This document shows positions 45,451-47,719 of a DNA stretch of 59,451 nucleotides, one piece after another. Below the pieces are notes generated by a model. It saw only the letters and a program-made list of their open reading frames with translations, searched no databases and was not told the DNA's origin. Positions within the stretch are counted from its first letter, which is position 1, and each line of letters begins with the position of its first letter. Origin of the DNA: Aeropyrum sp. GTDB lineage: Archaea > Thermoproteota > Thermoprotei_A > Sulfolobales > Acidilobaceae. The stretch spans positions 1 to 59,451 of the forward strand of contig WANT01000036.1 of NCBI GenBank assembly GCA_015521685.1, in the 5' to 3' direction. A program made the position numbers and the translations under genes.

Positions 45451-46485
45451 ATGTACTGTGGGGTGTGTGGCGTGAAGTTCCTTAGATGCAAGGAGATAGC
45501 ACCCTCGACAGGCAAGCTAGTCTCCATAATCGGTGCAGGCCCCGCTGGCCTAGGTGCGGCGGGCTACCTCAGGTGCCGGGGCCACGATGTAATAGTTTAT
45601 GAGATGCTTCCCGAGCCGGGAGGCATGATGATGTTTGGAATACCCGACGACAGGATACCCAAGGACAATATAAGGAAGAGCGTCAAGGAGCTCATGGAGG
45701 GCGGAGTAAAGATAATGCTCAATACAAAAGTTGGCAAGGACATAAGCCTTGACGAGATAATTAACTCCAGCGACGCTGTCCTAATTGCAACGGGGACCTG
45801 GAAGCCCAGGAAGCTGGGGGCTCCCGGCGAGGACCTTCCTTGGGTGGTCCCAGCGGCTGACTGGTTAGTGGAGGTCCATCTAGCTCGATACGGCTACCTA
45901 CCTTGGGCAAAAGTGCCTAAAGTTAGCGGAACCCTCCTTGTTGTCGGCGGAGGGCTAACAGCAGCAGATGCTGTACACGTCCCCCTAACTTATCCCGAGT
46001 TCAAGGACGGGGTGAAGAAAGTAGTCCTCAGCTATAGGAGGACGCGAGACTACGCTCCCATGAGGAAAAACGAGTTCGAGAGACTGGTGAAGATGGGAGC
46101 CGAGCCCTGGGAGCTAACTCAGCCCATCGAATTCTACGAGGAAAACGGTAAGAGGATAGTTAGACTCATTAGAATGAAGCTTGAAGCAGGAGACAGCGGA
46201 AGGCCTAGACCTGTCCCTGTTGAAGGGAGCGAGTTTGAAGCCGAGTTCGACTGGGTCCTCCTAGCGATAGGTGAAGTCCCTACACCACCATTCAGCAACG
46301 GGTGCTGCGGAATAGAGCTCAACCCTGACGGCTCCATAAAGACTGACGAGAACTTCATGACTACGAGGACAGGAGTATTTGCAGCTGGAGACGTGCGGCA
46401 CGGGCCCAGCCTCATAGGGAAGGCTCTGAAGTCAGGCTTGGACGCCGCCGCTAAAGTCCACCAGTACCTATCTGGCCAGATTTGA
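45451..46485 (+). CDS. FAD/NAD(P)-dependent oxidoreductase, GltD-like
   Basis: A 344-residue protein. N-terminal Cys motif CGVCGVKFLRC, then VSIIGAGPAGLGAAGYL near 26 (FAD), YEMLPEPGGMMMFGIPDDRIPKD (GltD-family loop), LLVVGGGLTAADA near 168 (NAD(P)), and GVFAAGDVRHGPSLIGKALKSG near 300. It looks like the small subunit of glutamate synthase or the FAD subunit of NfnB-type enzymes, but without a partner subunit beside it. Shorter than GltD because it lacks most of the N-terminal ferredoxin domain. Likely an electron-transfer reductase. Confidence 0.8.
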   Translation: MYCGVCGVKFLRCKEIAPSTGKLVSIIGAGPAGLGAAGYLRCRGHDVIVYEMLPEPGGMMMFGIPDDRIPKDNIRKSVKELMEGGVKIMLNTKVGKDISLDEIINSSDAVLIATGTWKPRKLGAPGEDLPWVVPAADWLVEVHLARYGYLPWAKVPKVSGTLLVVGGGLTAADAVHVPLTYPEFKDGVKKVVLSYRRTRDYAPMRKNEFERLVKMGAEPWELTQPIEFYEENGKRIVRLIRMKLEAGDSGRPRPVPVEGSEFEAEFDWVLLAIGEVPTPPFSNGCCGIELNPDGSIKTDENFMTTRTGVFAAGDVRHGPSLIGKALKSGLDAAAKVHQYLSGQI

Positions 46486-46567
46486 AGAAATACTCCCTGA
46501 CCCTGCTAACCACCAAATGCCGCCAAAATCGCTAGCCAATAACCCCCTGCTGACTACATTAGTATTT

Positions 46568-46683
46568 GGCTGGCCTCCCGGGGGATGAATTGCGGGCTAT
46601 ATGCCGAGAAAGGCTCTTGGTATCAACTCTCGTGAGGAAGTGTCGCGGCTAAGCTCACCCCCAACGAGCCCGGGAGGCCGGCT
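46568..46683. ncRNA. Candidate structured non-coding RNA
   Basis: A 15-bp stem closes the element: 46568-46582 pairs with 46669-46683. Two hairpins inside, CCGAG/CTTGG (46603-46619) and GTGAG/CTCAC (46632-46657), share about 85 bases. On the plus strand the helices contain G-U pairs (46571:46680, 46568:46683 and one in CCGAG/CTTGG) that would be A-C mismatches on the minus strand. This favours plus. Against that, the good TATA box (TTATTATAAT, 46698-46707) reads on the minus strand and would start near 46677. An ACA triplet at 46685-46687, just after the stem on the plus strand, recalls H/ACA RNAs, but I could not place the pocket. Strand and class are undecided. Confidence 0.5.
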
Positions 46684-46894: not shown

Positions 46895-47719
46895 TCAGCG
46901 TTTTTTCGAGACGAATTCCTCTTCCATCCGTAGCTGTTCTCTGATCTTTCTTTTCAGGTCCTCGCTCTCGAAGGGCATTCTATCTAGTATGTTCTTCTCC
47001 ATTCTGAGGACCTCACCTTGAATCATACTAATTATAGTTTTGTAGGAGATGTATGCGGCTATTTTGTCCTCCATTGATGCTGCTTTGCTGAGCTCCTTGA
47101 CTAGAGAGTATAGGAGCCTGGCTTGCATGATAGTCTTTATCTTGGCGTTCTCTCCATCCTCAACAATTTCTACCAATGCCTTGTATGTGGTTAGGCTTAA
47201 GTTGAAGTAGACGCTCCCGTCCTCTACTATAACGCCATAGTCGTTTATGTGGTCGTCATCGATAAATGCTATTACATCCTCAGGATAGACCGCTATCGGG
47301 ACGCCTCCATCGACAACTGTCAGCACTACATTATAGTTAGGGCCGAGCGTCCTATCTACTATCGTCTTCACAAGAGCCCAAACTTTGAAGAGGCTGTCCT
47401 CCAGCTTGTCATACCCATCTAGGTACTCGCTGGAACTTCCGCCCTCCCCTTCTAAACCAGCCTCCTCCGCTTCCGAGAACTCGGATTCTACTATAAGCCC
47501 TCTATTGGAGCCTGCTAGGAACGGCTCTTTCTCTAGAGTATCCCTAGTTATAATGACGCCCGGGGAGTAGCGCGGAGCGCTCATCTCCTTCTCCAGCTCC
47601 TCTAGCTTGCCCGCGAACCATCTGAGTAGCGCTATGTAAACCAGATACCCTAGTACTACACCTAGGGCGAAGGAGGCTGTTATGGCTGTGGGGCTTGCAC
47701 TAACCCCAAGGACGTTCAT
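46895..47719 (-). CDS. Hypothetical membrane-anchored protein, N-terminus possibly frameshifted
   Basis: The ATG at 47719 gives 274 residues: a membrane helix (about 13-32), an acidic linker, then a soluble mixed alpha/beta domain (YNVVLTVVDGGVPIAVYPEDVIAFIDDD...) and a helical tail. I do not recognise the family. Upstream, the same frame stays open to a TGA at 47800 with no normal start and codes for a further membrane helix (GGAVFGLATGWILAVTAFIA). A GTG at 47804, with G-rich ribosome site and TATA box, enters this stretch from another frame, separated by one base at an AAAA run. The real protein therefore may begin at 47804. Confidence 0.6.
   Translation of the reverse strand: MNVLGVSASPTAITASFALGVVLGYLVYIALLRWFAGKLEELEKEMSAPRYSPGVIITRDTLEKEPFLAGSNRGLIVESEFSEAEEAGLEGEGGSSSEYLDGYDKLEDSLFKVWALVKTIVDRTLGPNYNVVLTVVDGGVPIAVYPEDVIAFIDDDHINDYGVIVEDGSVYFNLSLTTYKALVEIVEDGENAKIKTIMQARLLYSLVKELSKAASMEDKIAAYISYKTIISMIQGEVLRMEKNILDRMPFESEDLKRKIREQLRMEEEFVSKKR

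Follow-up and report, generated by a model that had tools for sequence, protein, structure and literature searches.

The locus lies in a 409-bp gap between two convergent genes, which end at 46485 on the plus strand and at 46895 on the minus strand of the window, the whole 59,451-nucleotide stretch of Aeropyrum sp. DNA that we analyzed. The gene ending at 46485 spans positions 45451-46485 and encodes a GltD-like protein with a Pyr_redox_2 domain; the gene on the other side, ending at 46895, is unassigned. The gap contains a small RNA gene, with a single copy of the locus in the source genome, whose parts are listed in Table 1. In 12 Acidilobaceae genomes, the GltD-like gene immediately precedes the RNA in the same orientation, a neighborhood that is stable within this family. 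Since the RNA has different neighbors elsewhere, we regard it as an independent gene, and the glutamate connection of the GltD-like neighbor is probably a coincidence. The plus strand carries a candidate promoter (AATAA followed by a C run), and sequence comparison revealed an AT-rich element and a C run at a similar upstream place in several relatives. The upstream sequence at 46538-46563 (TAACCCCCTGCTGACTACATTAGT) also recurs with 92% identity elsewhere in a related genome (L023 in G034), perhaps as a shared promoter-like element.

Table 1. Features of the small RNA locus (positions in the window)
Feature	Position	Strand	Remarks
Candidate TATA box AATAA, then CCCCC	46538-46542	+	About 26 nt before the stem; putative promoter
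Whole small RNA gene	46568-46683	+	Homologues by BLAST and covariance models; single copy
Terminal stem P1, 5' arm GGCUGGCCUCCCGGG	46568-46582	+	Compensatory changes at all 8 modelled pairs
C-box-like half of K-turn, GAU bulge and GA	46584-46588	+	Bulge U and next G invariant (22/22)
12-nt D' guide GCGGGCUAUAUG	46592-46603	+	Core complementary to tRNA-Glu/Asp nt 10-18; position 5 opposite U13
D' box CCGA	46604-46607	+	CNGA in 24/25 relatives
Variable D'-C' linker	46608-46631	+	Length and sequence vary
C' box GUGAGGA	46632-46638	+	UGAnGA in most relatives
Antisense element AGUGUCGCGGC	46639-46649	+	Complementary to 3' end of tRNA-Glu/Asp, nt 65-75
GCUCACCCCC, candidate D guide for a 23S rRNA site	46653-46662	+	Acidilobaceae only
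D-box-like half of K-turn, ACGA	46664-46667	+	A invariant; GA in 14/22 relatives
Terminal stem P1, 3' arm CCCGGGAGGCCGGCU	46669-46683	+	Same covariation test as 5' arm

Relatives and terminal stem of the RNA

A BLAST search with 171 bases recovered diverged homologues both within the genus and in a second genus of the same family, and their alignment contained a strongly conserved unpaired core within a variable stem. A first covariance model (R1) matched 35 of the 214 genomes of the order at E≤0.5, and a second (R2) matched 46 genomes from 22 of its 78 genera at E≤0.1, about 35 of them with E below 1e-3. Together, the BLAST and covariance searches point to an RNA carried by about 35-40 genomes of one order of heat-loving archaea, in Acidilobaceae (including the source genus), Pyrodictiaceae, and three other families. 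Of the weaker R2 matches that we inspected, L239 from genus g9 is probably a member, and several others look like chance or coding matches; the weak R2 matches in f2, f8, and some f9 genomes were set aside as coding sequence or chance. In named genomes, a pattern scan found the RNA in Acidilobaceae, Pyrodictium, Pyrolobus, unplaced Desulfurococcales, and one unplaced Thermoproteota MAG, and its four bacterial matches were taken as chance. Outside the order, the C' box with its following 3'-end element was no commoner than a reversed-pattern control, and none of these matches had the guide. Many genomes of the order have the same tRNA-Glu, and our models did not detect the RNA in them.

Searches of Rfam at gathering and permissive thresholds (E up to 10) returned no match in the region, and the family is absent from Rfam 15. 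The models for archaeal RNase P RNA (RF00373) and SRP RNA (RF01857) likewise failed to match there at this permissive limit; these RNAs are encoded elsewhere in the source genome, on contigs C43 and C35, respectively. The view in the preliminary description that the locus fits none of tRNA, 5S, SRP, or RNase P RNA is supported.

The same description had proposed a structured RNA gene with a long closing stem and inner hairpins and had suggested a covariance search of collected homologues for compensatory changes. The closing stem, P1, is indeed a 15-bp helix that includes two G-U pairs. When the region was folded against 200 dinucleotide shuffles, z was -3.65 for the plus strand and -4.13 for the minus strand, with no shuffle as good on either strand; because both strands beat all shuffles, folding energy cannot choose between them. 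Across 26 aligned members, two-sided changes occurred at all eight modelled P1 pairs, a single pair turning over among GC, CG, AU, UA, and GU, and the whole three-helix model had a covariation score of 0.484 versus 0.165 for shuffled and 0.13-0.21 for slid controls. Because the members were aligned to fit P1, the test is biased in favor of this stem; even so, an effect of this size, with such turnover of pair types, leaves little doubt that P1 pairing is real. The proposed gene and its closing stem are upheld by the homologues and these changes. The inner hairpins fared otherwise, as those of the window are not conserved among relatives, in which the linker and the inner fold vary. We rejected a GUGAG/CUCAC hairpin, which Acidilobaceae retain in part, with several members breaking it, and which is missing elsewhere, and an H-type pseudoknot (GGGGG/CCCCC with CGGGCU/AGCCCG) that the window alone suggested and whose pairing relatives break.

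A strong GC-rich stem in a gap between convergent genes could also be a DNA-level inverted repeat, a terminator, or a mobile-element remnant with no RNA function. This explanation is contradicted by the covariation. The compensatory stem changes extend across families, the unpaired core is conserved, and the locus is single copy in its genome. We consider this explanation very improbable.

C/D-box-like architecture

We parsed the junctions next to P1 by hand in 22 relatives. On the 5' side, P1 is followed immediately by a three-nucleotide bulge and a G, with a subsequent A in 11 of these relatives, and on the 3' side, an invariant A lies at most 2 nt before the P1 arm. Many Acidilobaceae no longer have the second sheared pair; the window has GA opposite GA. 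The sequence layout of the junction matches a C/D K-turn placed on a terminal stem, and we call it K-turn-like; the canonical relatives described below have a full K-turn of boxes C and D in this position.

The K-turn-like junction is followed in order by a 12-nt guide, a CNGA box, a variable linker, a UGAnGA box, and the element GGUGYYGCGGC. The guide core, CGGGCUAUA, is separated from the CNGA box by 2 nt in 25 of 25 copies, although both spacer bases vary, and the +5 rule of C/D guides requires just such a fixed distance. The CCGA and GUGAGGA boxes of the window correspond to the inner D'/C' motif of C/D sRNAs (CUGA and RUGAUGA), and its 12-nt guide, with the core 2 nt from box D', falls within the 10-12 nt between boxes C and D' that are compatible with that rule. 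In contrast, the interval between boxes C' and D, 10-12 nt in C/D sRNAs, is about 25 nt in the window and at least 19 nt in most relatives, being 12 nt only in the f3 copies. The RNA also exceeds the 50-70 nt of C/D sRNAs, at 116 nt in the window and about 90-130 nt between stem ends in most relatives, and boxes C and D are degenerate in Acidilobaceae. Because its length and C'-D spacing depart from the definition, we do not file the RNA as a standard C/D sRNA.

A pattern search identified copies in three families (f3, f9, and f7) that combine canonical or near-canonical C/D boxes with the same guide. The arrangement is UGAUGA-UCGGGCUAUAUG-CUGA...UGAGGA-GGCCGCGAUCGU-CUGA in f3 (G142), UGAUGA-ACGGGCUAUAGA-CUGA in f9 (G107 and G108), and GUGAUGU-ACGGGCUAUAUG-CUGA...UGAUGA-AGUGCCGCGGCUCAGGAGU-CUGA in f7 (G183). 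Low-scoring Rfam matches on canonical-box loci were to CD-box sR families in 9 of 11 cases, all below threshold. With these canonical relatives as a bridge, the RNA appears to behave like an archaeal C/D sRNA.

Three f9 loci (L217, L218, and L220) are canonical C/D sRNAs whose D guide is the D' guide of the window RNA. The other guide of the f9 copies, GUCACGGG, complements CCCGUGAC of tRNA-Glu/Asp, a match that is weak when taken alone (64 of 200 shuffles), and these loci are possible dual-guide sRNAs for the two tRNAs. A guide variant for the other type of tRNA-Glu D arm (GUCUAG) had a single match, apparently in a coding region, and was rejected.

An H/ACA guide RNA, of which the ACA beside the stem had reminded the preliminary description, is exceedingly improbable. 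ACA does adjoin the stem in the window, as such a guide would have it, but the defining arrangement, a hairpin that contains a pseudouridylation pocket and has ACA or ANA on its 3' side, is not found, as relatives lack the ACA and do not keep the inner hairpins. Rfam gave no match, and the conserved features of the plus strand, its boxes and guides, are of C/D type.

Complementarity to tRNA-Glu and tRNA-Asp

We found no full complement of the D' core in rRNA, and the CCGCGG element had scattered rRNA matches, including one in the 16S 530 loop, none of which was convincing. Targets were sought among tRNAs only after rRNA had failed, using the tRNAs of A. pernix-type and Pyrolobus-type genomes. 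In this set, the best contiguous complement of both conserved elements lay in the same tRNA, tRNA-Glu, which was also the sole perfect tRNA complement of each. The guide core CGGGCUAUA is perfectly complementary to nt 10-18, with U13 as the residue indicated by the +5 rule; its target, GUAUAGCCCG, comprises nt 11-18 and neighbors, with the extra D-loop nucleotide 17a and a first G that is wobble- or C-paired. The consensus after box C', GGUGCCGCGGC, is perfectly complementary to the 3' end, nt 65-75, of the same tRNA, its target GCCGCGGCACC consisting of G65, the acceptor 3' strand (66-72), A73, C74, and C75; the A. pernix-type copy of this element has one mismatch. After permutation, perfect complements within the tRNA set turned up for the two elements in 0.6 and 1.1 percent of cases, and for both in a single tRNA in 0 of 20,000. 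By energy against shuffled guides, single elements gave 9, 20, and 7 of 200, and the one-mismatch A. pernix-type copy gave 81 of 200. Because single elements are less striking by energy, the case for a tRNA target rests on the coincidence of two elements together with their conservation.

These moderate single-element energies would also suit a C/D-box sRNA with some other real target, another RNA or an rRNA site, for which the tRNA-Glu match is coincidental. The D' guide of the window does score well by energy on a tRNA-Met and on the 3' end of 23S rRNA. However, the 23S 3'-end match was not found in Pyrolobus-type rRNA, two independent elements match one tRNA as no permuted pair did, the f9 copies carry another guide that suits tRNA-Glu/Asp as well, and one genus (g8, below) lost both elements together. 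We consider a different target improbable.

tRNA-Asp (L192) differs from tRNA-Glu in having CCU for CCC in the D loop and G for A at residue 73, and since both differences leave G-U pairs, tRNA-Asp is likely a second target. Over 28 relatives, the 3'-end element is paired at 294 of 308 cells with tRNA-Glu and at 296 of 308 with tRNA-Asp. Its internal variable positions are C or U opposite G and U or C opposite residue 73, where the C of two members would pair only with tRNA-Asp. The exceptions are at the terminal position and in one change of G to A; internal variation mostly preserves pairing. tRNA-Glu is nearly invariant, and thus there is no target covariation to read. In two genomes (G002 and G004), the D arm of tRNA-Glu(UUC) has one mismatch to the guide, leaving tRNA-Asp.

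tRNA-Glu genes read from member genomes share the acceptor stem, with the exception of genus g8, in which pair 6-67 is C-G instead. The g8 RNA has lost both tRNA elements and kept GCUCACCCCC. In two g8 copies (L048 and L233), the guide UAGAGUCGGGAU and the C'-proximal GGUAAAUUGC replace the tRNA-Glu elements, and our search for targets of these changed elements gave no convincing match. One g8 genome (G030) has two copies of the RNA locus on different contigs.

Two observations concern the tRNA genes themselves. Three tRNA-Asp genes (L193 in G044, L194 in G003, and L195 in G018) are split around the anticodon by insertions of about 115 to at least 180 bases, much longer than usual archaeal tRNA introns. 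Isolated tRNA-Glu 3' parts without a 5' part (L197 and L199 in G017 and L198 in G185) are probably attachment-site remnants of integrated elements.

The tRNA matches bear on the strand of the RNA, for which the preliminary description had weighed the G-U pairs of the stem in favor of plus against a TATA box in favor of minus. The minus strand is disfavored, as antisense to tRNA-Glu/Asp is the only role in which the conserved unpaired segments make sense, and that role requires the plus strand. With the AATAA element, the plus strand also has a candidate promoter of its own, and an RNA gene on this strand is supported.

A third element, GCUCACCCCC, adjoins the D-like box and is kept in Acidilobaceae and not in the g9 copy. 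It perfectly complements GGGGGUGAGC in the 23S rRNA of two complete congeners, and Pyrolobus-type 23S rRNA has GGGGCCGAAU at that site; the Pyrolobus-type small RNA is without the element. A comparable 23S match was reached by 7.6 percent of permutations, and guidance of a 23S rRNA site by GCUCACCCCC in Acidilobaceae is suggestive only. The 16S and 23S genes of the two congeners (L063 and L064) contain intron-like insertions relative to Pyrolobus-type rRNA.

A proposed role at folded tRNAs

These findings make it likely that the RNA is a C/D sRNA of divergent architecture that is restricted to one order and carries two elements antisense to tRNA-Glu/Asp. In the model that we favor, an RNA of about 116 nt, derived from archaeal C/D-box guide RNAs and characterized by a long terminal stem, a relaxed K-turn, and an inner C'/D' motif, would assemble with L7Ae, Nop5, and fibrillarin. 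The 12-nt D' guide would pair with nt 10-18 of tRNA-Glu and, with wobble, of tRNA-Asp to direct 2'-O-methylation of U13. The segment after box C' would pair with nt 65-75 of the same tRNAs (acceptor 3' strand, discriminator, C74, and C75), probably entering at the single-stranded NCCA tail and opening the acceptor stem by branch migration, which probably helps the D' guide to reach the D arm. In Acidilobaceae, the segment beside box D may additionally guide the 23S rRNA site. Since box D does not adjoin the 3'-end element, the latter is probably no second methylation guide, and an accessory antisense role is more likely. Several observations weigh against this model, namely the degenerate boxes C and D of Acidilobaceae, the long C'-D interval, the search for tRNA targets only after rRNA, the moderate energies of single elements, the D-arm mismatch in G002 and G004, and the many genomes of the order in which the same tRNA-Glu occurs with no RNA detected.

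A more tentative extension, which we would not expect to hold but consider possible, is that the C/D-derived RNP unfolds mature tRNA-Glu/Asp, the NCCA toehold opening the acceptor stem while the other arm invades the D arm. This would amount to RNA-guided remodelling of a folded tRNA, with or without methylation of U13. The RNA might instead be a C/D descendant that no longer guides methylation and is now an antisense regulator or chaperone, binding the D arm and acceptor end of tRNA-Glu/Asp to sequester, protect, or refold these tRNAs and thereby block charging or access to the CCA end. The degenerate C/D boxes of Acidilobaceae and a 3'-end element that covers the acceptor end away from box D would fit such a regulator, but the invariant spacing of core and box D' and the canonical relatives indicate selection for guided methylation, and we consider this alternative unlikely.

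Archaeal C/D-box sRNAs carry box C (RUGAUGA) and box D (CUGA) (PMC4644070, PMC7994747). The favored C/D-derived guide resembles them in its terminal K-turn-like junction, D'/C' motif, and canonically spaced 12-nt D' guide and in having relatives with canonical or near-canonical copies, whereas it differs from these 50-70-nt RNAs in its length, long terminal stem, degenerate C/D boxes, expanded C'-D interval, and two antisense elements for one tRNA. Known archaeal C/D guides directed to tRNAs include the tRNA-Trp intron for Cm34/Um39 and a Pyrobaculum sRNA for Cm56 (PMC6313347, PMC7994747), and in Pyrobaculum, each tRNA-directed sRNA has a tRNA target for only one of its guides (PMC7994747). 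Like these, the window RNA would be a C/D guide aimed at tRNA; unlike them, it is predicted to act on the D arm of tRNA-Glu/Asp and carries a further element complementary to the tRNA 3' end. In eukaryotic C/D snoRNAs, extra base-pairing enhances methylation (reviewed in PMC8162545). The window RNA similarly has a guide and an accessory antisense element on one target, although its target would be a folded tRNA, with the accessory element covering the NCCA end in a presumed helper role.

The nucleotide predicted to be modified is U13 of tRNA-Glu and tRNA-Asp, and position 13 is a listed pseudouridine site in archaea, A. pernix included (PMC6313347). Archaeal tRNA-directed C/D guides described in the cited reviews generally have one guide with a tRNA target, whereas two elements here appear to converge on one tRNA. 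If true, this would open to experiment the question of how guide RNPs gain access to folded tRNAs at very high temperature, as well as a possible role of C/D-derived RNAs in remodelling or regulating tRNAs.
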